From assembly GCA_023267045.1 (NCBI GenBank), contig JAHFOB010000009.1:1-34857 (forward strand): 34,857 bases of DNA. Direction: 5' to 3'. The first letter of the stretch is position 1; each line of letters begins with the position of its first letter. A program made the translations under genes and the position numbers. The notes under the pieces are model-generated. The model made no database searches and was not told the DNA's origin. It saw only the letters and a program-made list of their open reading frames with translations. This DNA is from Candidatus Zambryskiibacteriota bacterium. GTDB lineage: Bacteria > Patescibacteriota > Minisyncoccia > Phycocordibacterales > DATDWN01. Below, piece after piece: positions 2,156-34,818 of this stretch.

Positions 2156-2159
2156 GGAT

Positions 2160-2602: not shown

Positions 2603-2637
2603 GTTTATTTGGTTAATTGTCTGGGTGTTTTTAATGT

Positions 2638-2665: not shown

Positions 2666-2668
2666 CTA

Positions 2669-2756
2669 GTTGGCGTTTGGAGGGTTCGCCCTCTCACGGC
2701 TTCCAAGCCGTAGCCAAGCGCCAACAAAGTGTGTCACCTATAAGGTGGCATTTTTT
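2669..2756 (+). ncRNA. Candidate structured small RNA (three-way junction plus terminator)
   Basis: The arms 2669-2680 and 2714-2725 can pair over 12 bp (GTTGGCG with CGCCAAC, continuing through one G-U pair to TTGG/CCAA). They enclose a UUCG-capped hairpin (2681-2692, AGGG/CCCT) and a second hairpin (2696-2711, ACGGC/GCCGT with a six-base loop). A rho-independent terminator follows directly: stem 2732-2739/2743-2750, then six T (2751-2756). With the promoter at 2638-2665 this is a complete transcription unit of about 85 nt with no ORF. It is too short and lacks the T-arm of a tRNA, and I see no SRP or 6S signature. If transcription starts at 2672 the outer stem loses three pairs but stays stable. 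Family unknown. Confidence 0.65.
2732..2756 (+). terminator. Rho-independent terminator of the small RNA
   Basis: TGTCACCT (2732-2739) pairs with AGGTGGCA (2743-2750), one G-U pair, around the loop ATA; six T follow. The reverse strand has no T-run after the stem, so it acts on plus-strand transcripts. It ends at the stop codon of the convergent gene at 2759. Confidence 0.75.
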
Positions 2757-2758
2757 GT

Positions 2759-3043
2759 TTAATCTTCTTCTGGCACGCCATTGTGTAATATTCTGGTCAT
2801 TGTATTTTCATTCATCCCCCAAAATGGAATAATACTCCAAAAGAATTTCTCACCATTATCAATCTGCTTTGCAATCACTCTTACTCTATTTCTTTTTATA
2901 ACTGCAATGAATTCATAATAACTCACTGGCTTTAGAACAGTATCCGTTCTTCCTTTCATACGTATTCTCTCAAACTTTTTAGTTTCTAGAATACCTTCAT
3001 ATTTTTTATTATACTCTAGTTTCATCTTTATTTTTGTATTCAT
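2759..3043 (-). CDS. Unrecognised small basic protein
   Basis: 94 residues, no signal peptide or TM segment. Lys/Arg-rich first half (YNKKYEGILETKKFERIRMKGR), a middle segment of alternating hydrophobic residues that could be beta strands (YYEFIAVIKRNRVRVIAKQI), and a C-terminal motif FFWSIIPFWGMNENTMTRILHNG. I do not recognise the family. It lies 26 bp downstream of the giant fibre gene on the same strand with no terminator between, so read-through is possible. Directly before the ATG are 7-nt direct repeats (ATAAAGT on this strand), which place TAAAGT 7 nt before the start like other genes here. An internal ATG at codon 7 is an alternative start. The ORF is probably real because it is compact, fills the gap and faces a terminator. 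Confidence 0.6.
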   Translation of the reverse strand: MNTKIKMKLEYNKKYEGILETKKFERIRMKGRTDTVLKPVSYYEFIAVIKRNRVRVIAKQIDNGEKFFWSIIPFWGMNENTMTRILHNGVPEED

Positions 3044-3064
3044 ACTTTATACTTTATACTTTAT
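3044..3064 (-). repeat. 7-nt tandem repeat (ATAAAGT x3) upstream of the small gene
   Basis: Three exact tandem copies of ACTTTAT on the plus strand plus a partial fourth fill nearly the whole gap between the giant gene's stop and the next start. Each unit recreates a -10-like TATAAA/TAAAGT at 7-nt steps, so copy-number change would move promoter-like hexamers in register with the ATG. Confidence 0.6.
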
Positions 3065-3069
3065 ACTTT

Positions 3070-15000: not shown

Positions 15001-15438
15001 TTTTGATATATTCAATTCAGGCACAAACAGCCCCTCATGAATAATTTGCCTATACTTTGGCCAATGTACTTTCTTCCATTCACTAGCTATATAAATATTA
15101 GACGTATGCGCATTTTTAGAAATTACTGGCTCAACCTTTGATGAAAAAAAGTTATTGTCCTTAGAAGGAGTTACTGTAGATTTCCGAGGAGAGACAACAC
15201 TAGTTATATTTTTATTAATCTGAGTTGATACAAAATTAGTCTTATATGACTGACTTGGTAAATTAATATAGTTGAGCAAAGAGTTCTCCTCTACATACCA
15301 AATTTTCCCGATTCTTTTACAATCAACTTTATTTCCTCTACAAAGTTGGCCAATATAATCTTTTGAGTAGCCAGTTAGAGTACTAGCATCTTTAGCTGAA
15401 ATATATTTTCTGTTGTCAAAAAATATTGCAGAATTCAT
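3070..15438 (-). CDS. Giant membrane-anchored fibre/adhesin with N-terminal HTH domain
   Basis: About 4,122 residues. The start chosen is the ATG at 15438, seven bases after a TATAAT; a TTG two codons upstream is less likely. Order: HTH of excisionase/MerR type (residues 11-58, YISAKDASTLTGYSKDYIGQ ending RIGKIWYVEENSLLNYI); basic linker; one TM helix (about 147-163); a membrane-proximal alpha region; a short coiled coil (near ADVEARLQELNNKIQAQ); then a long Ser/Thr/Gly/Asn beta-repeat shaft with eight copies of a QWAFRNAGGNFYLGTTTV-like motif, many GNVGIGTTSP motifs and seven Cys-x6-Cys motifs; a seven-repeat propeller; an ADYAEYF...ILGII...GLVGRVPVKV...GDYLTTS domain as in tail-fibre C-termini; and a last DUF5011-like Ig domain (EITIIG...GDMG-type, AVDGAGN). 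Probable role: cell-surface fibre for attachment. Two short perfect palindromes are embedded in frame. Transcribed away from the putative origin. Confidence 0.85.
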   Translation of the reverse strand: MNSAIFFDNRKYISAKDASTLTGYSKDYIGQLCRGNKVDCKRIGKIWYVEENSLLNYINLPSQSYKTNFVSTQINKNITSVVSPRKSTVTPSKDNNFFSSKVEPVISKNAHTSNIYIASEWKKVHWPKYRQIIHEGLFVPELNISKKLLGLALTLLLTIGLITIKDNSSRFLETVSGLPNMTNLIKEDLKTKGLTFGDLSKTISKSPIVAYNNLSALVDFYSSGLGGGYERLSNFLQKTTYAFYNQLTLLGQNPPSYIVNSLQSVSLGEKKFVDKTAMFIVDSISNTHARIFAFISDSIGGASYANLYVKDSTKNLTASVATAVSEKLNPVDHSGVVVYDTVNNWFDRSIYSPIVNFFKKSPAIVNTVYVATKAEQTKNIPNAPKNTNVTNTTNVVERIIERPVASDITKADVEARLQELNNKIQAQFSSLSTGSGGNITNVYQEIAQSQIINSLSGTTITNPTITGGSITGTSINVSNITADNASLGTTTVTNLIVTNTSTSTFSGGIAVTGGCVSVNGVCLGIGNGSGGGSAGGTFSTTTSGVPGVLFNYSNNTNDILVIGGTSSTTGKFWYDPNTLIGYFSGNVGIGTTSPYAPLSVVGQIVASYFSATSTTATSTFSGGLSTNTLYVTGTISSSTFSNGINLLSGCFAVNGVCVGSGSFSNTVANGGTGNTSFVANTVLLGNGTGAIATTSAGTNGQVLALVGGVPTWVATTTFSGGLSYSAGNVTLNLADPNIWTALQTFNYSSSTIYSSFLTASTTNLVIGGSSFNNLLGSGLVNTSNVLTLDTTFLNNTTNSYINSSTTIPKTYTSNTFTALQTFNYSSSTNYSSFVTASTTNLVIGGQSFNNLLGTGLTNSSGALTVSNLPLTSLATLPINSIVTTNSSGNIIATGTQLTVGNIIATTSATSYFLGNVAVGTTTAAYLLDVYSSGASQLALSAGAGISQWAFRNAGGNFYLGTTTVEGTATTSVSALSILGSSGFVGIGTDNPQRTLHVVVKNSGTPSTIAMQNTDTTDNNGESLSFRSDSTGAGATAFKDAVNIQAVINTHDNATYASSLLFYTSIAGSLAERMRFSSAGNFGIGDTAPGAKLAVVGNSSIGYSSGQTAPTSGLVVNGLTGIGTTTPYYNFTVASTTGAQLSLSAGAGISQWAFRNAGGDFYLGTTTVAGTATTSISALEISGSGFGTTTIRGLNIIGQATSTSNVGYNITTGCFAISGNCIGNGSFTNTVANGGTGNTSFVANTVLLGNGTGAIATTSAGTDSQVLALVNGVPTWVATTTLSTISGTLAANQGGTGQTTYTTGDILYASGATTLTKLVATTDGLVLKLNGGVPSWQSDLTSGGGGGATAWSTSTNSMIIYPTNTSNILVLGGSATSTEGGTGNIFEVAPGKNSFFGGNVRISGNSSTTLLSAYTAYFGATATSTFSNAGVLTLAGLFDGPLQANAGVVSATTSIGLFYGGTATTTFYNGGVVYSDGTKLTQSASASNFFWDETNKRLGLGTSTPFAKLSINNIAGEPAFVIGSSTGNTFIIDSLGNARLGGTPGTTTPLGEKLEVVGNIISKGTSWTARTSAESNNWILVTYGGGQFIAVSSNGTHRVMTSPDGVSWTARNAPEANSWYSVTYGNGLYVAVAQSGTHRVMTSPDGVNWTAQNAAEQNTWWTVTYGNGLFVAVAVDGAHEIMTSPDGVTWTARTSAEANTWRAVTYGNGQFVAVGITGTHRVMTSPDGVTWTAQTASEANNWTAVTYAHGQFVAVSYDGSHRVMTSPDGVTWTAQTASEANNWNSVVYGNGLYVATSESGTNKVMTSPDGVNWTARQAAPATYWTSVAYGNGIFAAVSYSGQAMSSGKSEVNINPSLNIYQGGASFIGPVGIGTTTHLSTTTAGYNFGLTIFGAQYSSTTNFSNAPQLSLSDGVGVAQWTFRNAGGNFYLGTTTVDGTATTSISALEISGSGFGTTTVRGLTIANGQATSTSNVGWNITGGCYAIGGNCLSVFTNNLSSGGTATTTFYNGGVVFSDGYRLTQASSTSSFFWDDTNHRLGLGTSTPWGLFSINPNALGSNVPEFVIGSTSATHFVVNGAGNVGIGTSTLGSIAKLQIEFNNSESNKTLTGLLSNFTDSGSINTPTTIKGIDSSPRVTSTLSGAGGSPTLYGFYSAPVLSGSTPNSFNGVIISGLRTSPSFTGTVAANDYANISGLWSVLSDNLTGAGSKIKTGLLSAVTGTADSNYGVNITAYGANNNYGLAITSVEASSTNYAIYSSALAQSYIAASLGIGTTSPFSQFNLTLASSNQPQLALSAGAGFAQTVFRNDGTNFYISSTTVAGTATTSTSALEIALGGFGTTTIRGLNILGLATSTSNVGWNITTGCYAYNSTCIGGSSFSNTLLNGGTATTTFYNGGVVFSDGYRLTQASSTSSFFWDDTNQKLGLGTSTPWARLSINTSNTGSNIPEFAIGSSTGTHFLVDGTGQVGIGTASPTGRLHVLASGSDQSTIIADQGATTAWGIQFSKTGLSSAYALLTGNFQLGWYATMNPYVDDNANFKLGSVGARWNSISIGTGASQFDGAVTINGNLSAQGGLTVGSLNGPLQANAGVVSATTSIGVLYGGTGATSFSPNSIITSSADGLSLIATSSQLTVGSLISTTTNNSYFLGNLGLGTTTPSYLLNPFSSTASQLALSAGAGIAQWAFRNAGGNFYLGTTTVDGTATTSVSALTIIGSSGNIGVGTSTPWGLFSINPNALGSNVPEFVIGSSSATHFIVGNGGNVGIGTTSPGAKLAITGTATSSGAGPGAIAGILQDLTLNNNTSSGTQFGNRFINTVNGSLAGSEIGTLIRIVDSTSLANTTRGLEVQAWTGTNTAGTNTGIAGFGKTFGVTGTTDGLAGGVSSPAAIFADLDNGSAPTSGNAIRAYSDNATSANLVSIYQETSAYTGTGLVMNFGNNSGSFNGKFIDLQNAGTSKFVINAVGNVGVGTSTPGFQMQLSTTSSSGGFKPQLALSDFSAGANAKHWTFASQGGNFYIATSTDAYATTSISALEISGSGFGTTTIRGLNIVGLATSTSNVGISLTGGCYAIGTTCLSLSTLGGTVPVSKGGTNVTSFALNSIITSSADGLSLIATSSQLTVGSLISTTTNNSYFLGNLGLGTTTPSYLLNPFSSSASQLSLSAGAGIAQWAFRNAGGNFYLGTTTVDGTATTSVSALSISGSGFGTTTILGLNIVGQATSTSNVGFNITTGCYAYNGICVGGGSFSNTLLNGGTATTTFYNGGVVFSDGYRLTQASSTSSFYFDAINNRLGLGTSTPSYLLNPFSSTASQLSLSAGAGVAQWAFRNAGGNFYLGTTTIAGTATTSVAALTILGTSGNVGIGIANPTALMHIQGGATIGDLFKVSSSTGNAALTIGWYGGILQNIASTTALDLQDGSGNRVFAVDTTQSSSNAGIDVTAGGSQTGNLFNLFSSGGTPLAVFMADGGFLQNISSTTAFRLQSGAGVPLFNVDTLNSKFIFGTTTSGVAMVDIISDLSVSESNNPSMGSSTASGLRVISFDSDSPTALIKNANPYPCVGQATGCTSAVAAGSAGILTVESATTTNTTWYNLITAFSGSARNGTNAVFRVRGDGNVYGEAAFNASGADYAEYFDTFDTTISTGDIVVATITDPALMTAAITDAGLSTTTQASDISAVNEEASSTVNSLSAKSKLVSAIMKSNKAYDNKILGIISNQAAFIGNNPSGRNDSNKFKKIVGLVGRVPVKVSLENGAIAVGDYLTTSAEHPGYAMKATRSGYVLGVALEPSDVDSPETCQPGRLTCSEQSNTITTVLTFIQTGYKVINNTFVLGEDDGQLASATTTESGSGAQISATTFLINQKGSGNILQLQQNGTDRLLIKNDGTLAITSQYLKADNKPVLSVLANDGEVLSVTSAGDISIKGIILASKNTAGSATIKAGTVSTKVIFDKPYSSAPKVVLTPQGLPDSNYGVTEKTGDGFTITMKTPTTEDITFDWMALYQPDETAWQSLAFAGGINLPQGSPLGNGGGGNATTTDITSPEITIIGNNPATIEIGATYSDMGATVADRDETGAVNNNLGLHFNVDGADASEVSIDTTVSTSSPQATTTHTIVYSAVDGAGNWSFATRTVEVIPQQ
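3401..3425. repeat. Palindrome inside fibre gene, shared with a terminator
   Basis: Perfect 11-bp arms TTCCCCAAGGG / CCCTTGGGGAA around TGA. It encodes NLPQGSPLGN in the fibre. The inner 21 bases are identical to the core of the terminator at 18939-18977, so this is a dispersed palindromic repeat and not a local coincidence. Confidence 0.7.
4065..4093. repeat. Perfect palindrome inside fibre gene
   Basis: Perfect 14-bp arms AACATGTCAACCTG / CAGGTTGACATGTT around one base. It encodes a Cys-bearing loop, ETCQPGRLTCS, between the domain containing GYVLGVALEPS and the segment TTVLTFIQTGY. It looks like an in-frame palindromic insertion in a permissive loop. Confidence 0.65.
5873..6163. repeat. 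Near-identical 291-bp repeat in fibre gene, copy 1
   Basis: This stretch and 7325-7615 are the same length and differ at scattered positions, with roughly the last 150 bases differing at only a few third-codon-type sites. Copies are direct and about 1.45 kb apart in the same frame, so recombination between them would delete or duplicate whole shaft modules without a frameshift. Confidence 0.75.
7325..7615. repeat. Near-identical 291-bp repeat in fibre gene, copy 2
   Basis: Partner of 5873-6163. It covers the FRNAGGNFYLGTTTVDGT motif and the following segment containing SLIATSSQLTVGSLISTT. A shorter near-exact repeat also links about 8211-8290 and 9361-9440. Confidence 0.75.
9885..10755 (-). 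other. Seven-repeat beta-propeller-like domain within the fibre protein
   Basis: About residues 1560-1850 of the fibre hold seven tandem units of about 40 residues: W-T-A-[RQ], then E-A-N-x-W, V-T-Y-G-N-G-x-F-V-A-V, and T-H-R-V-M-T-S-P-D-G. The final ...SPDG... turn resembles BNR/Asp-box or sialidase-like blades. Seven units suit one closed propeller, a globular head within an otherwise fibrous protein; ligand binding is inferred. Confidence 0.7.
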
Positions 15439-15445
15439 TAACAAA

Positions 15446-18977: not shown

Positions 18978-20268
18978 AAAGAACTTTTATTTTTATAAAT
19001 CTCCTTTTGCCAATTTTGTAAACGCCTGACATAGCTTTTATTTCTGGGTCTGTAATTTTTCCTCGCCCCGTAGCGAGCTGTTCACCATGTACTGAGCTTT
19101 GCTCTAGTACTGTGGCTCTGCTACTGGGGTCGCTAGTATCCATATTTGTTACCGCTCCTTCTTCGATTAATCTTCTCCACTCCGTTTTGGAAGAAACTAT
19201 TTTTTCGGCAAGTAAAATATCTACAAGCAAAGTTTCTTTTGCAACTACCACTTCAGAAACTTCATCAGGCACACCACCTTTTGAAAAAGTTTTCTCAAAG
19301 TTTTCCTCGGCTTCTTTTGCAGATTTTTCTCCATAGCAGAGAGTGACAATTTCTTTTGCCAATCTTAATTTAAATTTTTTTGGGTTATCTCCTGAATTTA
19401 AGGATTTTTTTATCAATTCTATTTCATCTATTGCAATGCCTGTCACCAACTCAAAACCAGGAGAAATTAGTTCATCATCCCAACTCATGACTTTCCCGAA
19501 CATCTCTTCTGGGCTTTGGTTTAGAGCAACCATGTTGTTTTCTGTCTTACCCATTTTTCTACCAGTGGGGTCAACTATTAGTTTTGTAGCTACCACAAAC
19601 TTTTCTTTATTTTTGAGTGATTTCATCAAATCACGCCCAGCGAGCATATTAAACGTTTGGTCATTCCCACCAATTTCTCCGTCTACATCCATAGCCACAG
19701 AATCATACCCTTGCATTAGAGGATAGAGAAATTCGTGTATATATATCGGCTCTCCAGCTTCTCTTCTTTTAGCGAACATATCTCTTTTTAGCATTTGGTC
19801 AACAGTCATTAGAGAAGCTAACTCCAAAACATCACCAAAATTCATTTTAGCTAACCATTCAGAGTTAAACTTAAACATAGCTTTATTTGAGCCAGAAAAA
19901 GAAATAAATCTTGAAGCTTGTTTATGGTACTCTTTTAAATTAGCTAAAACTTCTTTTTGTGACAATTTTCTACGAGTAGCATTTTTATCTGTTGGGTCTC
20001 CTATCATTGCTGTAAAATCACCCATAAGAAGAATGATTTGATGACCAAGTTCTTGAAATTTACCCAATCTCATGAGAGGTATCACGTGCCCCAAATGAAG
20101 TGTCGGCCCAGTAGGGTCAATACCTAAATAGATAGTAAGTTTCTCCCCTTTCATCATTTTGGACTTTAAGAATTCTCTGTTGGGGAAAACATTTTCAATC
20201 CCTCTAGATAGAAGTTCGTTAATTTTGGCTTCGTTTGTTGATATTTTTGGTTTTTGAAAGCTAAACAT
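18976..20268 (-). CDS. tyrS: Tyrosyl-tRNA synthetase
   Basis: 430 residues. A class I synthetase that charges tRNA(Tyr) in the cytoplasm. The HIGH motif is HLGH (58-61); the KMSKS loop is KMGKT (238-242); tyrosine-site region includes YLGIDPTGPTLHLGH and GGNDQTFNMLAGRDL, the latter closer to the TyrRZ subtype than to the E. coli form. A C-terminal S4 RNA-binding domain spans about 347-430 (SSKTEWRRLIEEGAVTN ... KITDP ... YKIGKRRFIKI). Inside the S4 domain, residues of about 378-403 are extra and are encoded by an imperfect palindrome; relatives normally run from the V-x-[IN] turn directly into [GE]K-[IV]-x-D. The start is 37 bp from the divergent PBP start; TAAAGT lies 6 nt upstream. Confidence 0.95.
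   Translation of the reverse strand: MFSFQKPKISTNEAKINELLSRGIENVFPNREFLKSKMMKGEKLTIYLGIDPTGPTLHLGHVIPLMRLGKFQELGHQIILLMGDFTAMIGDPTDKNATRRKLSQKEVLANLKEYHKQASRFISFSGSNKAMFKFNSEWLAKMNFGDVLELASLMTVDQMLKRDMFAKRREAGEPIYIHEFLYPLMQGYDSVAMDVDGEIGGNDQTFNMLAGRDLMKSLKNKEKFVVATKLIVDPTGRKMGKTENNMVALNQSPEEMFGKVMSWDDELISPGFELVTGIAIDEIELIKKSLNSGDNPKKFKLRLAKEIVTLCYGEKSAKEAEENFEKTFSKGGVPDEVSEVVVAKETLLVDILLAEKIVSSKTEWRRLIEEGAVTNMDTSDPSSRATVLEQSSVHGEQLATGRGKITDPEIKAMSGVYKIGKRRFIKIKVL
19060..19137 (-). repeat. In-frame palindromic element inside tyrS (S4 domain)
   Basis: An imperfect inverted repeat spans about 19064-19133 and is centred near 19099: inner arms CTGAGC/GCTCTAG and TACT/AGTA, outer arms CCCCGTAGCGAG / CTCTGCTACTGGGG with small bulges. 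It encodes SDPSSRATVLEQSSVHGEQL plus a few residues, without a stop codon. Confidence 0.7.
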
Positions 20269-20289
20269 GCTATTACTTTATCATAAATA

Positions 20290-20298
20290 TGTTAGAAT
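20290..20298 (+). promoter_or_regulatory. Extended -10 of the PBP gene
   Basis: TGT + TAGAAT, then exactly seven bases to the ATG at 20306. Only 37 bp separate this start from the divergent tyrS start, leaving little room for untranslated leaders on either gene. Confidence 0.55.
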
Positions 20299-20305
20299 GC
20301 TAAGG

Positions 20306-22480
20306 ATGAAAAAGGGCTTTTTGGCTAAGCATGGATTGCGTAATATATTCATATTTATACTCTCCTGTGGGGCACTTTTCCTCGGGATTCTTTTTATCTG
20401 GGTTTCAACTTTCAAAATTCCTTCTCTTGATACAGTAGAAGAAAGAAAATTAAGCCAATCAACAAAGATTTACGATAGCACAGGTAAAATTTTGCTATAC
20501 GACGTGTACCAGAACACGAAAAGAACACCGATAGCCTTTGACCAAATTTCACAATATATAAAAGATGCCACGGTTTCTATAGAAGACAAAACGTTTTATA
20601 CAAATAGTGGCATTAGACCAACAGCAATAATACGAGCAATACTGGTTGATCTAACCACACTCAATTTCAGTCAAGGAGGTTCAACCATAACCCAACAGGT
20701 TGTTAAAAACTCTTTACTGACTGGAGACAAAAGTCTGTTTGGTGGCCCAGAAAGAAAAATAAAAGAGTTGGTCTTGTCGCTTAAACTAACTAAAGTTATA
20801 AGTAAGGATCAGATACTTTCTATGTATCTAAACGAAAATGCATATGGAGGAACTTTGTACGGCATAGAAGAAGCTAGCCAGTCGTTTTTTGGCAAACCTT
20901 CGTCTGATGTAACAATCGCAGAAGCTGCCTATCTGACAGCAATCCCCCAAGCCCCTACACATTATTCACCATACGGAACTCATTTAAACGAACTTGAGGC
21001 TAGAAAAAATCTAATCTTAAAGGAAATGTACGATGATGGGAAAATAACAAAAGAACAATATGATTCTGCTCTGGCAGAAAAAGTTGCTTTCTTGCCAAAA
21101 TCAAATACGGGCATAAAAGCCCCGCATTTTGTCATGTTCGTTAAAGATTATTTGGAAAACAAGTATGGCAGCGATGTTTTGGAACAAGGGGGACTGAAGG
21201 TAACAACAACACTAAACTACGACCTCGAAGTCAAAGCCGAAGCTGTGGCTAAACAATACGCTACAACAAACGAGCAAAACTTTAATGGCTCGAACGACGC
21301 TTTTGTGGCAATAGACCCAAAAACTGGTGGAATATTAACTATGGTCGGTTCTAGAGATTATTTTGACACGGCAATTGATGGCAATTTCAATGTAACCACA
21401 GCACACAGACAACCAGGTTCTACATTTAAACCATTTGTCTATTCTGAAGCATTTCTCAAAGGCTACACCCCAGAAACAGTTGTGTTTGATGTACCAACAC
21501 AGTTTGCTGCAAATTGCCCTTTTGATGATTTCACAAGTGGTTCTGAAAACAACTGTTACTCTCCAGGAAACTATGATAACCAATTCCGCGGTCCAATGAC
21601 CCTAAGAAATGCTCTAGCTCAATCTATAAACGTCCCTTCTGTAAAAGTTTTGTATCTTGCCGGTATAAAAGACTCTATTAATCTAGCTGAAAGTATGGGT
21701 ATACAGAGCCTCGGAGATGCTAACCAATACGGTTTAACTCTAGTTCTTGGAGGTGGCGAGGTGTCACTGCTTGATATGACATCGGCCTACGGAGTTTTTG
21801 CTACAGAGGGTATGCGAGTGCCATACACCAGTATTTTGAAAGTTGAGGATAAAAATGGCAAAGTTTTGGAACAAATGAACCCACAACCGTATCAAGTTCT
21901 AGATGCAGAGGTAACCAGAAAAATAACCGATATTCTCTCTGACAATGTTGCTCGAACACCACTTTACGGAGCAAATTCTGTTATTTATTTTGGTGATAGA
22001 CAAGTAGCTGTCAAAACCGGTACAACAAACGACTACAAAGACGCTTGGATTGTAGGCTACACCCCAAGTATTGTAGTGGGCACATGGGCAGGAAATAACG
22101 ACAACACACCAATGGCTAAAAAAGTCTCTGGTTTGATTGTAGCTCCAATGTGGCGAGCTTTCATGGACGAAGTATTGCAAACTGTGCCGGTTGAAATTTT
22201 TAACCCACCACAAAAAGAAGACTCGTATGATATAAAACCAGTTTTGCGAGGTAAGTGGCAAGGAGGAATATCAAATATAGTTCAAAATCCAAACTACGAC
22301 CCAAATATCCCTTATGACTCTGTTCAGGAAATTCTCTCTGGTGGCGTTCACTCAATACTATATTGGTTAAATAAAGACGACCCACGAGGCCTAGCGCCAA
22401 CCAACCCAGCAGACGACCCACAGTTTGATCATTGGGAATATGGTGTTCGTCTCTGGGCACAACAAAATGGTTACCCGTAA
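20306..22480 (+). CDS. Class A penicillin-binding protein (transglycosylase-transpeptidase)
   Basis: 724 residues from the ATG at 20306, chosen because a TGnTAGAAT lies 7 nt upstream; ATGs at 20267 and 20297 would add 13 or 3 residues. Cytoplasmic MKKGFLAKHG, a TM helix (about 12-34), a GT51 domain (EDKTF 93-97 with catalytic E93, GGSTITQQ 124-131, RKIKE, LNENAYGG 175-182 with E177), then a transpeptidase domain (STFK 372-375 with Ser372, SIN 440-442, KTGT 570-573). It polymerises and cross-links peptidoglycan outside the membrane. The usual H in EDxxFxxH is Asn100 here. Two Cys (404, 417) flank a transpeptidase loop. It runs head-on to its neighbours and converges on the DUF721-like gene. 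Confidence 0.93.
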   Translation: MKKGFLAKHGLRNIFIFILSCGALFLGILFIWVSTFKIPSLDTVEERKLSQSTKIYDSTGKILLYDVYQNTKRTPIAFDQISQYIKDATVSIEDKTFYTNSGIRPTAIIRAILVDLTTLNFSQGGSTITQQVVKNSLLTGDKSLFGGPERKIKELVLSLKLTKVISKDQILSMYLNENAYGGTLYGIEEASQSFFGKPSSDVTIAEAAYLTAIPQAPTHYSPYGTHLNELEARKNLILKEMYDDGKITKEQYDSALAEKVAFLPKSNTGIKAPHFVMFVKDYLENKYGSDVLEQGGLKVTTTLNYDLEVKAEAVAKQYATTNEQNFNGSNDAFVAIDPKTGGILTMVGSRDYFDTAIDGNFNVTTAHRQPGSTFKPFVYSEAFLKGYTPETVVFDVPTQFAANCPFDDFTSGSENNCYSPGNYDNQFRGPMTLRNALAQSINVPSVKVLYLAGIKDSINLAESMGIQSLGDANQYGLTLVLGGGEVSLLDMTSAYGVFATEGMRVPYTSILKVEDKNGKVLEQMNPQPYQVLDAEVTRKITDILSDNVARTPLYGANSVIYFGDRQVAVKTGTTNDYKDAWIVGYTPSIVVGTWAGNNDNTPMAKKVSGLIVAPMWRAFMDEVLQTVPVEIFNPPQKEDSYDIKPVLRGKWQGGISNIVQNPNYDPNIPYDSVQEILSGGVHSILYWLNKDDPRGLAPTNPADDPQFDHWEYGVRLWAQQNGYP

Positions 22481-27093: not shown

Positions 27094-27268
27094 AAAATCT
27101 CGTCGAACCAAAACCTTTTCAGAGCACCCACAGGGCTTGAGCATGGTTTTGTCAATTGATCCTGAACGAAGTGAAGGAGGAAATTGACAAATCAAGCCCG
27201 AGGACAGAACGAAACTTTCGCTGGAAAGTTGAGTGTCTCTGAAAAGGTTTTGGTGATAAAGAGATTTT
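27094..27268. repeat. Large branched palindrome between convergent genes
   Basis: Outer arms: CCAAAACCTTTTCAGAG (27108-27124) pairs exactly with 27237-27253, extended by AAAATCTC (27094-27101) / GAGATTTT (27261-27268). Inside: GGGCTTGA/TCAAGCCC (27133-27140/27192-27199) continuing to TTTGTCAATT/AATTGACAAA (27148-27157/27182-27191), and a separate hairpin AACTTTC-GCTG-GAAAGTT (27213-27230). As RNA it folds into a three-way junction of about 175 nt on either strand. No coding capacity. Bidirectional terminator, structured RNA or mobile palindromic element are all possible. Confidence 0.65.
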
Positions 27269-28494
27269 TATTTCGTCAAATCCAAACTCCAGAGAGAATT
27301 ATCTGTCTTGTTCATAAACACTAGATACTGTTCACTATCAGAAAGTATTGGTTTTATTACATCAATCGATTCCCCGGCGTCACTAGAGAGATTTTCTACT
27401 ATAGAAGCCGTGTTATTTTTTATATCATATTTCCAAATATCATCACTGAAAGACTGGAAGCCCTTATACCACAAAGTTAGGCTGTCTCCCCCGATTGGAT
27501 TTCTTGGCACAGCACAATAAATCACGGTTTTGTCTTTTTTACTCCATACACATTTCTCTGGGGAAGTCGTTGGAGTCGTTACAGTAGATGTTTTTGTCGT
27601 TGTGTCCAACAAGTACATTAGATCACCGTTTCCTTCTATCAAATACAAAACTTTTGTCGCATCTGGACTAACAGAAGTAGATAAACCAGAAATATTTCCC
27701 AAGATTTTTTTAACTGCTCCTGTTGTTGTATCCACAAAATATAGAAAACCCGGGACATTTTGAGCTGGTTTTGTTGTTAGAGCAACAGTTTTTGTATTTA
27801 CAAATTGTGATAAGAGTTCTTTTATATCAGAATTCCAAATCATTTTCTTTTTTGTACCATCAAAGCTTGAAATATATCCTGATGAAGTATTAACTCCTTG
27901 TTGTAAATAGAAAATATTTGTATCAAAAACCGAGACATCACTTATCCCCCCAGGAAAAGCAATACCAGAAATAGTATTTTCTGTACTTGTGCTCGTCGCT
28001 TTTACCGTCAGGGAATAAGTATCGACTGTTTGGTTATCGTCTTTCAAATATCTAGCAACCAAAGAATTATTTTTGTTACCCCAAATAGCATCGTATACAA
28101 CAGGAATTGTGGTGTTTGAAATACGGTTATGTTGTGGAGAAAATAGTTCAACTTCATATATGTGTCCGGTAGCTTTTTCTATATATCTAACAACTGTTCC
28201 AGCTTTGATGTCCAAAGTTCCTGCTCCAGAGACAGGTTCTTTCGAAAGTTTTCGCAGTTTTAGATTAAAATTTTCAGGCGTTTGCGGTGTTTGAGTATTG
28301 TTTTGGTTTGTTGTTGTACTGACTTGACTACTGTTATCACTCCCACTCCCCCCAAAAGGAAAGAAACCTTTGAATCCAGAAATAATTCCTCCAGAAGTTC
28401 CGTTAGAAGCAGGCACCAAAAAATAATAACCAACAAGGCCGAGAAGAACCATTCCTAGAACTATCGATATTATAATTATAAATTTTTTGGACAT
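27268..28494 (-). CDS. Membrane-anchored beta-propeller-like protein (T4SS locus)
   Basis: 408 residues. An N-terminal signal anchor (about 5-27, IIIISIVLGMVLLGLVGYYF), a Gly/Ser/Thr/Asn/Gln-rich linker to about residue 75, then a domain with repeated short beta motifs such as SVSPDATKVLYLIEGNGDLM, SPEKCVWSKKDKTVIYCAVP and LSDSEQYLVFMNKTDNSLWS. The S-P-D-A-x-K-V-x-Y pattern is that of TolB/WD40-like (PD40) blades. The domain would sit outside the membrane. It is the last gene of the VirB4-pilin run, starting 6 bp after the pilin-fusion stop. Function unknown; a structural or sensor part of the secretion or pilus machinery is inferred from position only. Confidence 0.65.
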   Translation of the reverse strand: MSKKFIIIISIVLGMVLLGLVGYYFLVPASNGTSGGIISGFKGFFPFGGSGSDNSSQVSTTTNQNNTQTPQTPENFNLKLRKLSKEPVSGAGTLDIKAGTVVRYIEKATGHIYEVELFSPQHNRISNTTIPVVYDAIWGNKNNSLVARYLKDDNQTVDTYSLTVKATSTSTENTISGIAFPGGISDVSVFDTNIFYLQQGVNTSSGYISSFDGTKKKMIWNSDIKELLSQFVNTKTVALTTKPAQNVPGFLYFVDTTTGAVKKILGNISGLSTSVSPDATKVLYLIEGNGDLMYLLDTTTKTSTVTTPTTSPEKCVWSKKDKTVIYCAVPRNPIGGDSLTLWYKGFQSFSDDIWKYDIKNNTASIVENLSSDAGESIDVIKPILSDSEQYLVFMNKTDNSLWSLDLTK

Positions 28495-28500
28495 TTCAGT

Positions 28501-29271
28501 TTATATAGATAAATGCCAGTGGTCACCGTCAGAGGCCACAGTTCCTCCACAGGTTTGGCCTTTTTGTTCCCATAAAAATGTCGCTACTTGTCCGCCAAGT
28601 GTTTGGGTGTATGTTGTACAACCATTTGAGCTACCAACTACTCCAGTTTTAATATAGGCATTAAGAGCAGAATTGCTAGAAGAAAGGTCTACTGCTCTAC
28701 CTTGGTAATGAAGTGAGTTTACATCATGAGGGCCACCCGTTGTACTTGTTATTAGATTACTAATATTACAATTACCGCACTTTGAATCAAGATCATTTAA
28801 TGCCGTTATGGTTGTGGGTAGTAATGAAGTAGCTCCTGCTGTTGCCCCAGTAACTGTCGCTCCTCCAGTTGTTGATGGCGGAGGTTTTATATCCAACTTA
28901 AAACTAAGAATTTGCGGGTTTATTGTATTTAAAATAACCCAAGCGCCAATAACAATAAGTAATCCCCAAATAGCGTCTTCTATAAACTTCTTACCATCCT
29001 GTTTTTTGAAAACAGAATCTGTCGTAGCATATGTAATACCCCCTAGAGTTATCATGACAAAAGCCATGGCAACTGCTAGACCGACTGCCAGATTAAATGC
29101 CGCAGGAAGATAGGAGGACAGAGTCGCTTTACTACTATCAAGACCTGGTACAGGAAGAGGAACGAGTAGTGTGTAGCCTTTATCAGTTTGAGCAGAAACT
29201 GTAGCAAAAACAGACAAAAACAAAAGAGCTGATATCGTTGCGTATTTAACTGTAAGAGAAATTGATTTCAT
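28501..29271 (-). CDS. VirB2-type pilin fused to an M15-peptidase-like domain
   Basis: 256 residues from the ATG at 29271; a TTG nine codons upstream is rejected because TATAAT lies 7 nt before this ATG. Signal peptide with likely cleavage after VSA (26), then two TM helices (about 56-80, 98-120) flanking a short basic loop (KKQDGKKF), the layout of T4SS pilins (TrbC/VirB2). A Thr/Gly/Ala linker (130-150) leads to a C-terminal domain with SLHYQGRAVDL (H188, D195) and DHWHLSI (H251, H253), matching the SxHxxGxAxD and HxH zinc motifs of M15-type peptidoglycan peptidases; Cys165, 168, 218 and 241 could pair. Topology puts this domain outside. Catalysis is unproven: the residue before HWH is Asp250. 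Confidence 0.75.
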   Translation of the reverse strand: MKSISLTVKYATISALLFLSVFATVSAQTDKGYTLLVPLPVPGLDSSKATLSSYLPAAFNLAVGLAVAMAFVMITLGGITYATTDSVFKKQDGKKFIEDAIWGLLIVIGAWVILNTINPQILSFKLDIKPPPSTTGGATVTGATAGATSLLPTTITALNDLDSKCGNCNISNLITSTTGGPHDVNSLHYQGRAVDLSSSNSALNAYIKTGVVGSSNGCTTYTQTLGGQVATFLWEQKGQTCGGTVASDGDHWHLSI

Positions 29272-29278
29272 ATCTGTG

Positions 29279-29287
29279 ATTATATCA
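29279..29287 (-). promoter_or_regulatory. Extended -10 of the pilin-fusion gene
   Basis: TGA + TATAAT, seven bases before the ATG at 29271. The TGA is also the stop codon of the upstream gene. It implies an internal promoter that lets the pilin be made independently of the rest of the locus. Confidence 0.55.
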
Positions 29288-30340
29288 CTGCACTCCAAGC
29301 TCTATATTGAAATTTCCTGATGCAAACTGCAGAATTTTGCTTGGGTTTTCGATCGAAAGAGAAATGTTTGATGTCCCAACAGTTCCCTGTTTTTGTCTGA
29401 AAATTCTTGTTGTCTGTGTGGTGTCGTTGTCTATCAGCGCGCCATTTACAGTCCATTTATATATTAATCCTTGAGAGTTAGTAGTGCCAAAGAAAAATGG
29501 CATTCCCACTATAGCTACTTCAGAATTACCAAAACTAGCTATACCAGAAAGAGCTTTTTGAAATTCTATGCCATAAAGAGGATTTTTTTGGTAGAAAATA
29601 ACAGATGGATCATCTGGGGCTAGAAATGTTTTAGCAAATCCGACAGAATCTGTGCTAGCACTGGTTACTTCTACCTCAATATCAAAAGGTCTGGAAATAA
29701 GTGGAGAAACAAATGTAAATGTGTTTTTACCATATCCAGAATCACTATCTTGCACTGATCCATTTTTGCTCCATTTATAGACCAAGTTTTTTGGATTTAT
29801 TTCAGAGCCATTTCCGAGAACCATGTGAGGTAGTGCAACAAAGGTTATTTTGTTTTGGTGGCTGAACATTGCTTTACCTTTGTAAAAAGGTGGGACAAAA
29901 CTGTCTGTTTGCCAGACCAGATCCACAGCCACAGGTTTTATGTTTAGAGTTTTTTCAATAGTATTTCCTTCTGCTGTTTGTATAATAACGTCTATCGATG
30001 TTGTTGTATTGACTTCTCCTGTTGTAAAACTGACACTTTTTATTCCAGTACCTTTTTGAACAGTTTTGCCGTTAATTTTCCATGTAATACCGGCCATATT
30101 TAAGTCTGTAACATAGCTGGTTATAGAAGCGTCAACATTCTGGTTTGAGCTAGGATTTTCTGGGTTTATATCAAGGTTTACATCAGCCCCAGATGATCCA
30201 ATAGTTTGGGCGGAAACAGTTTGAGAAGTCAAAAAAACAGAAAACAAAGAAAACACAATAAATAGACTGAAAATAACCTTTTTCATCCCGTTAGAGACAG
30301 GTCGCGATCTATTTTGGCAGTCAATTTTTAGAAATTTCAT
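29285..30340 (-). CDS. Exported Ig-like domain protein (T4SS locus)
   Basis: 351 residues from the ATG at 30340, which has TAAAAT exactly 7 nt upstream. An alternative ATG at 30286 (333 residues) starts right at the signal peptide (KKVIFSLFIVFSLFSVFLTS, cleavage near VSA-Q). The mature part looks all-beta with Ig/PKD-like segments (LDINPENPSSNQNVDASITS; ITWKINGKTVQKGTG; LVYKWSKNGS; LIYKWTVNGALIDNDTTQTT). No TM after the signal. Family not recognised. The extra 18 residues of the long form are encoded by an inverted repeat that lies across the 5' end, so an element may have altered the start. It sits directly upstream of the pilin fusion; an extracellular scaffold role is inferred. Confidence 0.65.
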   Translation of the reverse strand: MKFLKIDCQNRSRPVSNGMKKVIFSLFIVFSLFSVFLTSQTVSAQTIGSSGADVNLDINPENPSSNQNVDASITSYVTDLNMAGITWKINGKTVQKGTGIKSVSFTTGEVNTTTSIDVIIQTAEGNTIEKTLNIKPVAVDLVWQTDSFVPPFYKGKAMFSHQNKITFVALPHMVLGNGSEINPKNLVYKWSKNGSVQDSDSGYGKNTFTFVSPLISRPFDIEVEVTSASTDSVGFAKTFLAPDDPSVIFYQKNPLYGIEFQKALSGIASFGNSEVAIVGMPFFFGTTNSQGLIYKWTVNGALIDNDTTQTTRIFRQKQGTVGTSNISLSIENPSKILQFASGNFNIELGVQ

Positions 30341-30402
30341 CACTAAAATTTTATATTATTACAATAGTTTGAAAACCAACCGTGACCGCGGTCTCTAACG
30401 GG
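30287..30402. repeat. Palindromic element across the 5' end of the Ig-like gene
   Basis: Perfect arms CCCGTTAGAGAC (30287-30298) and GTCTCTAACGGG (30391-30402) 92 bp apart. Next to the right arm is the self-complementary GACCGCGGTC (30384-30393). The G/C-rich ends contrast with the A/T-rich interior, which holds the -10 and the upstream start codon of the gene. Confidence 0.6.
30348..30353 (-). promoter_or_regulatory. -10 element of the Ig-like gene
   Basis: TAAAAT exactly 7 nt before the ATG at 30340. It lies inside the palindromic element 30287-30402, so the element itself may supply the promoter. Confidence 0.4.
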
Positions 30403-30457: not shown

Positions 30458-30985
30458 CTAGGCCGCTTGTTCGTAATCTCCTTCAAGTAAGCTTATGTCA
30501 TTGTTTAACATGCTTATTTCCCTTTCAGTTAAATTGTCCAAGTTTTTGAGTTTTACCTCGGCTTTAGCCTTTCTTTTTTTAGTCAAACGCCAAGCATATA
30601 AAACTAACAGAGTGTTAATTGGTAATAAACTGACTATCGGTAATCCATCAACAAAAAGGCCTAAAACCCAATACCAAAATTTTATTTTCCATTTTAAAAA
30701 CCAGCCTTTACCAAGCATAAAAAAGAATAGAAATGAAGTTAGAAAAAGACCCGTAGCAAAATTAACACCAGGTATTTCTCCGATCAAAAGTAGATCAAGA
30801 ACAATGTCCATGAAATCTTTAAACAATGCGAGTATCATAGCAATCATAAAAGCACTTGTATCATTTCCTTTTGCTATTTCCTCATTTAACTTTTCTGCCA
30901 AGCTTTTAGCTCCAGAAACTATTTTCTTCTTAAGATTTACATCATAGATTATTCCTCCTCTTATAGTTTTTTCTTCATCATCCAT
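30458..30985 (-). CDS. Multi-pass membrane protein (T4SS locus), unrecognised
   Basis: 175 residues. A charged N-terminus (MDDEEKTIRGG, then a helix LKKKIVSGAKSLAEKLNEEI) is followed by about four hydrophobic segments: FMIAMILALFKDFMDIVLDL, NFATGLFLTSFLFFFML, FWYWVLGLFVDGLP and VSLLPINTLLVLYAWRL. A basic, then charged C-terminal helix (KKRKAKAEVKLKNLDN, TEREISMLNNDISLL) ends it. I do not recognise the family; it is shorter than VirB6 and lacks VirB3 features. It starts 26 bp after VirB4 on the same strand, with a weak AGGA about 10 nt upstream of the ATG, and probably forms part of the inner-membrane platform (inference from position). Confidence 0.65.
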   Translation of the reverse strand: MDDEEKTIRGGIIYDVNLKKKIVSGAKSLAEKLNEEIAKGNDTSAFMIAMILALFKDFMDIVLDLLLIGEIPGVNFATGLFLTSFLFFFMLGKGWFLKWKIKFWYWVLGLFVDGLPIVSLLPINTLLVLYAWRLTKKRKAKAEVKLKNLDNLTEREISMLNNDISLLEGDYEQAA

Positions 30986-31011: not shown

Positions 31012-34000
31012 CTATTTCCCACTCTGTTCTAAATCCAGTTTAGCTTTTTTGATTTGCAAAATTTGCGATGGGTCAGATGTGATTATTTGGTCCTCTGTGT
31101 ATGAAGCAATTATTTTTACAGCTACGTGCTTTAGTCCAGCGAAAAAGATTCCCTCTCCAACGTCGGATTCCAAAAGCAAATATTTTTCTTCGTCAGTTAG
31201 ATTAAATGTTTGCTGGAGTTTATCGATAGATGTTGGTGATTGCTTGAGCAAAATCTGAATAGATGAGTTTGTAATAATCGGCACACCATAGGGTGATTTC
31301 ATAAAGTCATCAACGTCTTGGGTGATTGTAGCAAGTCCAAGGAAATATTTTCGGCCTCTTTTGGCAAGAGAAAGTAGAAACGACGCTGTGTCTTCTGATT
31401 TCATCATCCACCATGCCTCGTCTATAACCAGCAGTCGCTTTTTCAGTTTTTTCCTGATCAAGTTCCATATATAGTGCATGACAATATACATAGCGATAGG
31501 TTTGAGCTCGTCCTCCATATCTCGCAGTGAAAAGACAATAAACTTTTTGTTTATATCAACGTTTGATGGTTTGTTTATAAAACCTGCCCATGTTCCACGA
31601 GTGTATTTTGTCAGTCTCTGTGCCAGCGAGTCTCCACCCTCCATTCCCGTCAGAACAAGCTCAAAGTCGGACATAAGTGGTGGTTCTACATTTTCAAAGT
31701 TTCCATCGGCTGTGATGTCTTTCAAGGCGTATGTTTCTGTTATCGCTCGGTCAATGATAGCGTCTTCTTCTGGAGAAAGTCCTCCCATCATGATACGGAA
31801 AAGTCCTACTAGGTTTATGATATTTGATCGCAAGACATTTGAAAAAGACTCGCCTTCTCCAGGGGTTGGCAGTTCAAACGGGTTTATATGATGCTCGGAG
31901 TTTAGTGAAATATTAAAATATTTACCACCGACAGCTTCTGCCAGGTACTCGTACTCTTTTTCTGGGTCAATAACGATGACATCTGTATCAAACATCAGGG
32001 TTCGAAGAATTTCCAGTTTTGTTGCGTAGGAATTGTGGACAAACATTCCATTAGAACCGGCCAGAAAGACTTCATTGTCAACCGTTAAATCGTAGACATA
32101 TTTTTCTTTTATATTTTGAGTTTTCTTTATAGCCACAATCGGATCCCAAAAAAGATCGGCAGAAGCAAGTCGTTCCAAATTTTTGAGAATTTCTTCAACC
32201 CGTGGCATTTTAGATGAAATATTCTGGTACGTTTCTTTAATAAAAAGTGCCGCTTCTCGAAGCATGTTATATGAAGTGCGATCTGGTAAATTTTTACGGA
32301 ATGCCACGCCCAAACTCGGATTCATATTTGTTATAGAGGAGTTAAAATCTATAAAACCAGAGTGGATTCGCACAAGAGATTGTTCTATTGTGCCAGCTTC
32401 TTTTTCACCAAGTGTTACTCGAGCCAGAGTCAAGACGTTTGCAAGACCAACCTCTCCCTTATTTCCTTTCATCCATGCCCAACTTGAGCCAAGTTCTTGC
32501 CATAATTTCTGATTGTATTCTCGATTTGATTTACCGAGTTTTATTAGGTCTAGAATATTTGGGAGTGAGCCGAGATCGTTCATTGCTCCCGCAATATTTT
32601 TAAAATGTTCAACTCGTTCTCGAACGCTTGCAATAAGTTTAATCAGTTCTTTTGGTGATGGGTTATAAACTCCGCGTGAAAGAGGTGAAATGTTTGCAAT
32701 ATTGTGAAGCTGACTACCGAAGTGTTCTCGCAGTTCACTAATCAGTGGCGCAATAGTGGGGATAATATTGACATTTGTGTTATAGGAGACAGACAGGGCT
32801 AACTTAAGGGATTGATTTTTTCTGATTGTGACAAAACCAATTTGGCGTGAAAATTTTTCTATATTTTCTTGTCCGGAGATAGTCAATTTCCAAAAAACCT
32901 TTTTTCGTTTGGCGCCAGAATACTTCTTCATTTGTTTGTGGACTCGCGTTATTATGCCAAAGAAATATAACAAATAAGATAGACTGGAAATAAGCTTTTT
33001 AGATTTGGAAAGAGCGGTAACGGTATTTTTTTCCATTCCGCCATCTCCTTCAAAATAAGCTCGTAAAAAAGCGGAAGTTATATTTTTTGGAGCGTTGAAT
33101 AGAACAGATGGCGCCACTTTTTCTCCAGATTTTTTTATTCCGACTAAGATGTGAATCATTTTTATAAATGGTCTGTCAGCTGTGGCAAGAGCATTTTTTA
33201 TTGTATAAAAATTAACGCCTATATCTTGAAAACATTTTTTAATATCACACAAAACCTCCGGATCAATATTGGAAATTATGACAGCACTACTAGTTATAGT
33301 TCCCTCGGCTATAATATAGCCAAGTAAACGAGCAAATGGTTCTGTCACTTTAAACCAAGCTGGCAAGACGCCCTTGCCAGAGGCACTGACAACTTTCAAT
33401 TCACGACAAGTTTTTGGATTAACGGCAATATTTAAGCTGGAGGCAATTTTCAAAAAATAATGAACCGGTATTCGTGAGCCATCTTTATATTTATACAAAT
33501 ATCGGTCTAAATTTTTATGGAGTGGTGTTTTTTTGAGAAGAGCGTAATTTTTTTGGATAATTTTTTCGGTGCCCGTAAGATACATTTGTTTTTTAGGGTT
33601 AGCAAAAAGATCGAGCAAATTAAGAGTGTTTTCGACGATTTTAGGCGCCTCAATCTGTCGTGGCAGAGGAATATATTCTCCTATAGTCACATCAGTGCTT
33701 TTAGCAACCACAATCTCGCCTTCTCGCAGAACTAACATATTGTGATCACCAGTAGTGGTTATTTGTCGACCACTTTGTGTTTCAAATTGATAAAAAGTCT
33801 CTGGAGCCACCTTACGAGCCGCCACAGAAACAGGACTCCATTCCCCCTTCATCTCTTTATTGTAAGTAAAAACTTTTAGACCTGGGTCTATTACTCCTTC
33901 AAGTTCATGATCTATTTTTACCAGCCCAAACTTTTTGATTTTTTGCTCAACCAATTCTTTTATATTTACTAACTTTGTTTCATGACCGTCTTTAACCAAG

Positions 34001-34818
34001 ACCGATTCAGAGCCAAGAATGCTTTTCCCGGCACCAGACTTGGCAAAAGTAATCGAGTTATAGTTTTCAAGTGAAAATCTATCAAACAGAACAAGCGACG
34101 AGTTGTGGCGGTTTATTCCATACAAAATTCCCTTGTCAGATGTTAGATCAAAAGAAACAAAAGGAAAAAGAGATGAAAGTGGTGATGAGTTTAGTTTGCT
34201 ATAGACTTGCAGACCGTCTGTACCCAGAGGAATAGTTGTTTTGAAGGCTTGTTCTTGCTGGAAAAGAGCCGGTTTTACATAAACCAGTTTTGACTCAAGG
34301 ATAGACTTGATTTCTGACTCTATTTTGTCTAGCTCGTTCTCTGAGTCGGCGTATATTGTGATATAGAGGCCTACATCAAACAGTTTTTCTTGGGCTTGCT
34401 GGAGCTGGTCACGGAGGTTTTCCAAGTCCTGATAGGCCGTATCGAGCATCGGGTTTCGTACTAGTCCCTTGGCCTCTCGAGCGTTTATCTGACTCTGAAC
34501 CTCTGCCACTTTCTTTTGAAATGTTCGCAATACTCCAGCTGTTTCAATAGGTGTGACGAAAATAGCGATATCAAATATTTTGTCTAGATTTATGATTGGG
34601 GCAAACCAATTTTCTGTAAGAAATCTCGGGTATGAAATAACAAAAAAGCTTCGCAGTATTTTTTCGCCAAGATTTATGCCTTTTGGAGTTACTTTCAAAG
34701 CGCTCGGTGCAATAATATCTTTCAGTTCAAGTGCACCAGAATCATATATTTCCTGTGGCAATATCGTAGATATTTGAGGTTCTTCGTTTTTCTTTTTTAA
34801 AAAATCAAATAGTGCCAT
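31012..34818 (-). CDS. VirB4/TraC-type T4SS ATPase containing an intein
   Basis: 1,268 residues before splicing, about 604 after. Extein N (1-265): ALFDFLKKKN, the VirB4 N-domain with a coiled segment (VAEVQSQINAREAKGL ... LENLRDQLQQAQEKL), YGINRHNSSLVLFDRFSLEN and the Walker A motif KSGAGK. Extein C (930-1268): SYATKLEILR completing the P-loop as GAGKS, VIVIDPEKEYEYLAE, NPFELP, Walker B RLLVIDEAWWMM, SLAKRGRKYFLGLATITQDV and a C-terminal LLLESDVGEGIFFAG. VirB4 powers substrate transfer and pilus subunit handling at the inner membrane. The protein can bind ATP only after the intein is removed, since residue 266 of the P-loop is the splice junction. First gene of the locus seen here; its upstream region is cut by the window edge. 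Confidence 0.93.
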   Translation of the reverse strand: MALFDFLKKKNEEPQISTILPQEIYDSGALELKDIIAPSALKVTPKGINLGEKILRSFFVISYPRFLTENWFAPIINLDKIFDIAIFVTPIETAGVLRTFQKKVAEVQSQINAREAKGLVRNPMLDTAYQDLENLRDQLQQAQEKLFDVGLYITIYADSENELDKIESEIKSILESKLVYVKPALFQQEQAFKTTIPLGTDGLQVYSKLNSSPLSSLFPFVSFDLTSDKGILYGINRHNSSLVLFDRFSLENYNSITFAKSGAGKSILGSESVLVKDGHETKLVNIKELVEQKIKKFGLVKIDHELEGVIDPGLKVFTYNKEMKGEWSPVSVAARKVAPETFYQFETQSGRQITTTGDHNMLVLREGEIVVAKSTDVTIGEYIPLPRQIEAPKIVENTLNLLDLFANPKKQMYLTGTEKIIQKNYALLKKTPLHKNLDRYLYKYKDGSRIPVHYFLKIASSLNIAVNPKTCRELKVVSASGKGVLPAWFKVTEPFARLLGYIIAEGTITSSAVIISNIDPEVLCDIKKCFQDIGVNFYTIKNALATADRPFIKMIHILVGIKKSGEKVAPSVLFNAPKNITSAFLRAYFEGDGGMEKNTVTALSKSKKLISSLSYLLYFFGIITRVHKQMKKYSGAKRKKVFWKLTISGQENIEKFSRQIGFVTIRKNQSLKLALSVSYNTNVNIIPTIAPLISELREHFGSQLHNIANISPLSRGVYNPSPKELIKLIASVRERVEHFKNIAGAMNDLGSLPNILDLIKLGKSNREYNQKLWQELGSSWAWMKGNKGEVGLANVLTLARVTLGEKEAGTIEQSLVRIHSGFIDFNSSITNMNPSLGVAFRKNLPDRTSYNMLREAALFIKETYQNISSKMPRVEEILKNLERLASADLFWDPIVAIKKTQNIKEKYVYDLTVDNEVFLAGSNGMFVHNSYATKLEILRTLMFDTDVIVIDPEKEYEYLAEAVGGKYFNISLNSEHHINPFELPTPGEGESFSNVLRSNIINLVGLFRIMMGGLSPEEDAIIDRAITETYALKDITADGNFENVEPPLMSDFELVLTGMEGGDSLAQRLTKYTRGTWAGFINKPSNVDINKKFIVFSLRDMEDELKPIAMYIVMHYIWNLIRKKLKKRLLVIDEAWWMMKSEDTASFLLSLAKRGRKYFLGLATITQDVDDFMKSPYGVPIITNSSIQILLKQSPTSIDKLQQTFNLTDEEKYLLLESDVGEGIFFAGLKHVAVKIIASYTEDQIITSDPSQILQIKKAKLDLEQSGK
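32032..34023 (-). mobile_element. LAGLIDADG intein in the VirB4 P-loop
   Basis: 664 residues, Ser266 to Asn929 of the precursor, flanked by GAGK and SYATK. Splicing blocks: A SILGSESVLVKDG (Ser nucleophile), B RQITTTGDHNMLVL with the TxxH-like TGDH, F KYVYDLTVDNEVFLAGSNG, and G FVHN with +1 Ser. Homing endonuclease motifs: LLGYIIAEG (498-506) and FLRAYFEGDGG (584-594), each with an acidic residue in the usual place. Unusually long: about 220 residues of helical sequence (about 670-890) lie between the endonuclease and block F. Frame and motifs are intact, so it looks active. Confidence 0.9.

Follow-up and report, generated by a model that had tools for sequence, protein, structure and literature searches.

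The locus headed by virB4

The gene considered here encodes a T4SS pilin that carries an additional C-terminal domain, and lies on the reverse strand of the window, that is, the whole stretch of 34,857 nucleotides that was analyzed, which comes from the Patescibacteria, tiny and probably host-dependent bacteria. Its open frame of 256 aa, counted from an ATG, has the same coordinates as in the preliminary description of this DNA; an alternative TTG start is possible 27 bases upstream. The genome contains a single full-length match to this frame, and no second one. The relevant features are the following.

28501..29271 (-): whole gene, T4SS pilin with a C-terminal LAS/M15-like domain (open frame, 256 aa)
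29188..29271 (-): signal peptide, residues 1-28, ending in TVSAQ (sequence and alignments; putative cleavage site)
28921..29103 (-): T4SS_pilin (VirB2-like) two-helix domain, residues 57-117 (PF18895 above cut-off, model helices, hydropathy)
28828..28905 (-): low-complexity linker, residues 123-148 (pLDDT below 50 over 128-147)
28504..28827 (-): LAS/M15/hedgehog-like domain, residues 149-256 (AlphaFold, profile, weak Foldseek, sub-threshold M15_4)
28687..28710 (-): H188-x6-D195, predicted to supply the first two Zn ligands (invariant in 17 homologues)
28567..28569 (-): E235 (in FLWE), candidate catalytic acid (alignment; placed like Shh E177)
28513..28524 (-): D250-H251-W-H253, predicted third Zn ligand motif, HxH (H251 in 17/17, H253 in 16/17)
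31012..34818 (-): VirB4-type ATPase (CD1110-like) with an intein containing LAGLIDADG domains (NF045971 and Pfam)
30458..30985 (-): 175-aa membrane ORF, located between virB4 and the gene of the Ig-like protein (ORF list)
29285..30343 (-): secreted Ig/PKD-like protein of 352 aa, encoded directly upstream of the pilin-LAS gene (weak PKD_3 match only)
27268..28494 (-): 408-aa membrane-anchored protein, immediately downstream, with the look of a beta-propeller (TolB/Kelch-like; putative family)

The pilin-LAS gene belongs to an operon-like run headed by virB4, with the Ig-like 352-aa gene stopping 13 bases before it and the 408-aa gene following 6 bases after it. The VirB4-type ATPase is recognized by NCBIfam NF045971 (E=5.7e-102) and by the Pfam P-loop_TraG and intein families; the 175-aa membrane ORF has no family match in Pfam or NCBIfam.

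When 84,980 species genomes were scanned with one peptide pattern, 76 loci were obtained. Because this pattern was drawn from the second pilin helix, the loci were not picked by their C-termini, although the underlying alignment and the ranking by tblastn favor relatives of the window. Many loci of Paceibacteria largely keep the order virB4-(175-aa ORF)-Ig352-pilin-TolB408-yidC-rnpA-dnaA-dnaN, with only one locus giving a match to the 175-aa ORF. Syntenic homologues of the 352-aa Ig-like gene and of the 408-aa gene are present in 36 of the 76 loci each, and virB4 is encoded alongside the pilin in the window and in 50 of the 76.

Some features of the surrounding DNA can be recorded separately. 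In the VirB4 of the window (31012-34818, minus strand), the intein spans about residues 269-930; in loci L039 and L044, VirB4 is likewise in two pieces, N- and C-terminal, that lie ~2 kb apart at the same joint, and the VirB4 of L033 is continuous. An ORF of 4124 aa (3070-15444, minus strand) consists of many repeats (FRNAGGNFYLGTTTV... units) and lies near a 718-aa repeat protein (2-2155); together, these two ORFs occupy more than one third of the window, in a genome of 0.75 Mb. The ORF at 20267-22480 appears, by its general look, to encode a PBP-like enzyme of wall synthesis.

A two-helix pilin joined to a LAS-like domain

The encoded protein begins with a signal peptide and a two-helix pilin, which a disordered linker connects to a C-terminal domain of 108 aa. 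The pilin is recognized by T4SS_pilin (PF18895) over residues 57-117, above the cut-off (E=4.4e-7, 30.3 bits against 26.6), and both the AlphaFold model and hydropathy display the plan of T4SS pilins, with a signal peptide and two hydrophobic helices (51-83 and 87-117 in the model) joined by a charged, K-rich loop, KKQDGKK. Residue A27 of the signal peptide is near-invariant in the alignments. PF18895 is detected in 65 of the 71 members of the pilin family, and the second pilin helix holds invariant residues, partly by construction given that the search pattern lay there. The charges suggest a topology in which the K-rich loop would be cytoplasmic and the C-terminus outside; this argument is modest because the loop region holds four basic and four acidic residues.

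Single-sequence searches of the C-terminal domain (Pfam, NCBIfam and phmmer) find M15 only below threshold. The scores are 18.8 bits against a cut-off of 25 for M15_4 (PF13539; E=0.0025 on the domain alone) and 16.6 against 22.1 for HH_signal (E=0.0067), so that the domain is filed in neither Pfam family. By contrast with the single sequence, a profile of 17 homologues (alignment A5) compared with all PDB chains reaches Sonic hedgehog (Shh) at E=3.6e-5, in a match that covers the H-x6-D half of the domain, the HxH half being in register and, taken alone, not significant; a narrower profile of 12 sequences (A4) gives only E=0.027 against the PDB. AlphaFold models residues 149-256 confidently (pLDDT 88, pTM 0.81). 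With this domain model, the two best Foldseek matches in the PDB are both VldE (E=0.043 with probability 0.66, and E=0.11), and the top viral match (E=0.078) is to a phage protein that bears the name hedgehog, none of these being significant; the full-length model, dominated by its helices, retrieves no meaningful match. The viral contigs searched contain no relative of the window protein, and nothing in PHROGs matches its C-terminal domain. Taken together, these comparisons make the domain likely LAS-like.

The motifs themselves are S-L-H188-Y-Q-G-R-A-V-D195 (H-x6-D) and H251-W-H253. The LAS signature comprises H-x6-D and H-x-H, represented in Shh by H141, D148 and H183, along with E177 (PMC6027127), and the ligand residues of VldE are H301, D308 and H375 (PMC11667670). 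Among the 17 homologues, H188, D195 and H251 are present in all and H253 in 16. In four wider relatives (L035, L049, L145 and L150), HFS or HWD replaces HxH; since the last position of the motif is S or D in these proteins, the third Zn ligand could be either H251 or H253. E235 is conserved in alignment A5, gapped or misaligned rows apart, and by analogy with Shh E177 (YYE before HxH) is a candidate catalytic acid; in the wider set, there is no fixed catalytic Asp or Glu at the position three residues ahead of the last His. A loose LAS-type motif occurs in 21 of the 58 pilin C-termini of at least 90 residues, against a background of 2.0% in shuffled C-termini and 2.0% in other ORFs of the same loci. 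Catalysis by this domain is plausible.

The preliminary description had read the gene as a pilin fused on one chain to an M15 peptidase-like domain with SxHxxGxAxD and HxH motifs, to be checked by a profile search against M15, VanY and hedgehog-type families and by the conservation of the Zn ligands. The fusion stands, with PF18895 above its cut-off and the C-terminal domain in the same open frame; the motifs are present, with their ligand positions conserved in homologues, and the 17-homologue profile does reach the hedgehog family, so that neither of the outcomes named there as refuting was observed. The M15/hedgehog-type (LAS) identity is supported as remote profile homology, with the single-sequence Pfam scores for M15 below cut-off. 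The earlier interpretation as a whole is supported in part, in that the domain may cut or only bind the wall, the protein may or may not be built into a pilus, and its substrate could be the host's wall or the cell's own.

Recurrence of the fusion and exchange of its hydrolases

Profile-supported fusions of a pilin with a hydrolase are found in 30 of the 76 loci. In 19 of these, the C-terminal domain is LAS; three carry other M15 domains (L053, L058 and L059, by Pfam M15_4, VanY or M15, with L059 slightly below the cut-off), seven, including L070, carry SLT, and one, L042, NlpC/P60 (22.0 bits against a cut-off of 23). In the majority of the 76 pilin loci, no hydrolase is recognized. The count of 30 leaves out L045 and L088, whose C-termini contain an NPGNIG motif, and L080, in which the LAS motif fits and the profile does not reach; on the VirB4 tree discussed below, L080 is labeled LAS. 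When run against all 3040 ORFs of the 76 loci, the LAS profile matches pilin ORFs only.

Within the family to which the window belongs, 15 of 17 genomes contain a match, most with a C-terminus of LAS/M15 type; one homologue (L015) has a weak Glucosaminidase match. In a spread sample of 380 genomes from the phylum, LAS domains occur in 26, on 28 distinct ORFs (after removal of duplicates by hand), of which 20 also match the pilin profile. A single frame of L166 encodes pilin, LAS and SLT, and in L155 the pilin and LAS are accompanied by an apparent second M15 motif. Both the fusion and the fact that it recurs are solid, and the expectation that it would be found next to virB4 in other Patescibacteria is borne out.

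Several arrangements in the neighborhood of these genes deserve mention in their own right. At L157 and L160, a LAS protein with a single membrane anchor and without a pilin domain is encoded directly downstream of the pilin-LAS fusion. L147 (955-2610, minus strand) encodes LAS followed by a lysozyme-like region (by eye, without a Pfam match), with no pilin domain detected. L090 contains two adjacent pilins (3-671 and 689-5143), the first with LAS and the second, of 1484 aa, with a subtilase (S8) in its C-terminal half; as this is one case, we rejected S8 or another protease as a general theme.

Related pilins in the same place carry hydrolases of different types, namely SLT, NlpC/P60, M15_4, VanY and LAS. 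In a VirB4 tree with 51 tips, at least 11 changes of C-terminal class are counted, and still 11 when the two NPGN loci are merged with those lacking a class, this number being approximate because the tree was built by a quick method and few of its branches have strong support. C-terminal folds differ while VirB4 stays 84-94% identical; for example, the VirB4 cores of L047 (SLT) and L053 (M15_4) are 93.4% identical, and the pilin occupies the same syntenic place. The presence of predicted wall-cutting enzymes of other kinds in this place in relatives suggests that the secretion machine brings its own drill.

Not all pilins in this position carry a recognizable enzyme. The NPGNIG pilins of L045 and L088 also occupy the same syntenic place; their unassigned C-terminal domains have a lysozyme-like look, a reading that we rejected given that neither Pfam nor PHROGs yields a hydrolase match. 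Same-place pilins of L044, L046, L050 and L064 have long, Ala/Gln-rich, probably helical C-termini and no enzyme, and three of these four records are named Taylorbacteria.

Other wall hydrolases and pilins of these genomes form the background to the fusion. The window protein has no SLT domain in Pfam searches, none was found in its genome, and SLT exceeds the cut-off in one of the 17 genomes of the family; the genome of the window encodes three M23 peptidases, which could open the wall. In the phylum at large, SLT genes without a pilin are common, and the claim that SLT domains of the phylum are usually located on pilins was rejected because the best 30 SLT loci are all non-pilin. Most genomes of the family encode five to seven short pilins elsewhere, compared with one long pilin at the virB4 locus, so that, with a separate array of short pilins in the family, the long pilin looks like a specialized subunit. 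No such array was found in the 94.6%-complete assembly of the window, and hence its reading as a minor subunit rests on relatives. In a same-genus genome, L120 and L134 (G007, contig C25) contain an array of short tandem T4SS pilins.

Possible roles and relationships to known systems

The interpretation that we favor, with a probability of roughly two thirds, is that the pilin-LAS protein is a minor VirB2-like subunit of the T4SS of Patescibacteria that carries its own predicted peptidoglycan peptidase and in this respect resembles VirB1. Under this scenario, the protein would be exported by Sec, and the pilin hairpin would anchor it in the membrane or place it in the T4SS pilus, the K-rich loop facing inward and the C-terminus outward. 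On its flexible linker, the zinc LAS/M15 domain would then be able to cleave stem or cross-bridge peptides of the wall around the channel or the pilus tip, accomplishing the local wall opening that a separate VirB1 performs elsewhere, and lineages would exchange wall hydrolases (SLT, NlpC/P60, VanY/M15_4) on the same pilin stem. The sequences show the fusion, the types of domain, the conserved ligand positions, the synteny and the swapping, and from there we infer catalysis, topology, incorporation into the pilus and the VirB1 role. The scarcity of SLT in the family, with none found in the genome of the window, and the separate array of short pilins in most genomes of the family speak for this role; the three M23 peptidases of the genome speak against the interpretation, and the common occurrence of SLT genes without a pilin elsewhere in the phylum counts against a strict replacement of VirB1.

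The alternatives overlap with this scenario as regards the target wall and the choice between anchor and pilus, and the weights given to them are not meant to sum to one. An artefact, whether a chance match of the motifs or two genes joined through misassembly or a frameshift, might be suspected from the sub-threshold single-sequence M15 scores; with the same open fusion, devoid of internal stops, found in independent genomes and contigs, the ligand positions conserved and the regex background only about 2%, its probability is negligible, and the recurrence in many genomes refutes it. A wall-binding or structural pseudo-peptidase, serving to anchor the T4SS in peptidoglycan or to sense this polymer, would accommodate the catalytic acid that is not fixed, the disappearance of the last His in some relatives (L035 and L049) and the precedent of animal hedgehogs, where the same fold serves non-hydrolytic roles (PMC6027127). 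Nevertheless, the three ligand positions and HxH are kept in the window and its close relatives, and the replacements by SLT, NlpC/P60 and VanY in related pilins are hard to explain by binding alone, which leaves such a non-catalytic module improbable.

It is possible, at odds clearly short of even, that the pilin hairpin is nothing but the membrane anchor of a hydrolase that works beside the T4SS. A filament would be crowded if each of its subunits bore a domain of ~108 aa, LAS proteins with a single anchor and no pilin adjoin the pilin-LAS genes of L157 and L160, and the one long pilin at the virB4 locus compares with five to seven short ones in most genomes of the family; yet, the retention of PF18895 in 65 of 71 members and the invariant residues of the second helix go beyond the needs of a generic anchor. 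The favored interpretation also has a sub-case in which the fused pilin, at or near the tip of an extended pilus, locally opens the peptidoglycan of the host bacterium, much as wall-cutting motifs in phage tape-measure proteins do. The fast swapping of folds at 84-94% VirB4 identity is what changes of host would produce, VldE, the closest structural match, has a domain named after TM4 tape-measure motif 3, which aids DNA injection into the target cell (PMC1796659), and T4SS pilins of Saccharibacteria are essential for epibiotic growth (PMC10633639). However, swapping is also expected if any wall hydrolase suffices, the cell's own wall also needs opening, given the PBP-like ORF at 20267-22480, and nothing here puts the protein beyond that wall; we view a host target as less likely than not. 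The broader proposition that the T4SS of Patescibacteria drill the host wall with pilins tipped with swappable hydrolases, exchanged as hosts change, in a manner comparable to tape-measure motifs, is speculative and rather unlikely.

Should the favored interpretation hold, the fusion could explain why, according to published surveys, VirB1 is missing from many Patescibacteria that have VirB2 pilins, a pattern taken there to mean that no VirB1 is needed (PMC12102498): in many lineages, the predicted enzyme is on the pilin itself, and a search for a stand-alone VirB1 would therefore miss the hydrolase. The fusion also offers a concrete, testable entry point to the question of how a T4SS of central importance to epibiotic life gets through a wall, and the exchanges of hydrolase could be compared with the wall types of the hosts. 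In the open-access full texts searched, we found no description of a pilin-hydrolase fusion.

With the VirB2-like pilins already described in Patescibacteria (PF18895; PMC12102498, PMC10633639), the window protein shares the two-helix pilin, the signal peptide and the vicinity of virB4 and dnaA; those proteins are described as small pilins or arrays, and we found no mention of a C-terminal enzyme in the main text of the papers. The VirB1 proteins of Gram-positive systems (PrgK of pCF10 and TraG of pIP501, with SLT and CHAP) share the predicted local opening of the wall and the link to virB4, and their layout of a glycosidase plus a peptidase (PMC12102498) has a counterpart in L166, which likewise pairs glycosidase and peptidase-like domains. 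Here, in contrast, the enzyme is on the pilin, and the predicted fold in the window is LAS/M15, neither SLT nor CHAP. The hedgehog N-domain and the bacterial Hh-like DD-peptidases (M15A) provide the significant profile match, mainly over the H-x6-D half, with SLHYEGRAVD of hedgehog corresponding to SLHYQGRAVD of the window and HIH to HWH. The best, though weak, structural match is the C-terminal domain of VldE/Spr1875 (9flk, 9flm), a LAS-fold zinc L,D-endopeptidase (PMC11667670) that shares H-x6-D and HxH. TM4 tape-measure motif 3, in turn, resembles the pilin-LAS protein as a wall hydrolase inside an injection machine and is a tested precedent for such an enzyme acting on the target cell (PMC1796659); the VldE and TM4 domains, however, belong to a secreted enzyme and a phage tail protein, respectively, rather than to a pilin.
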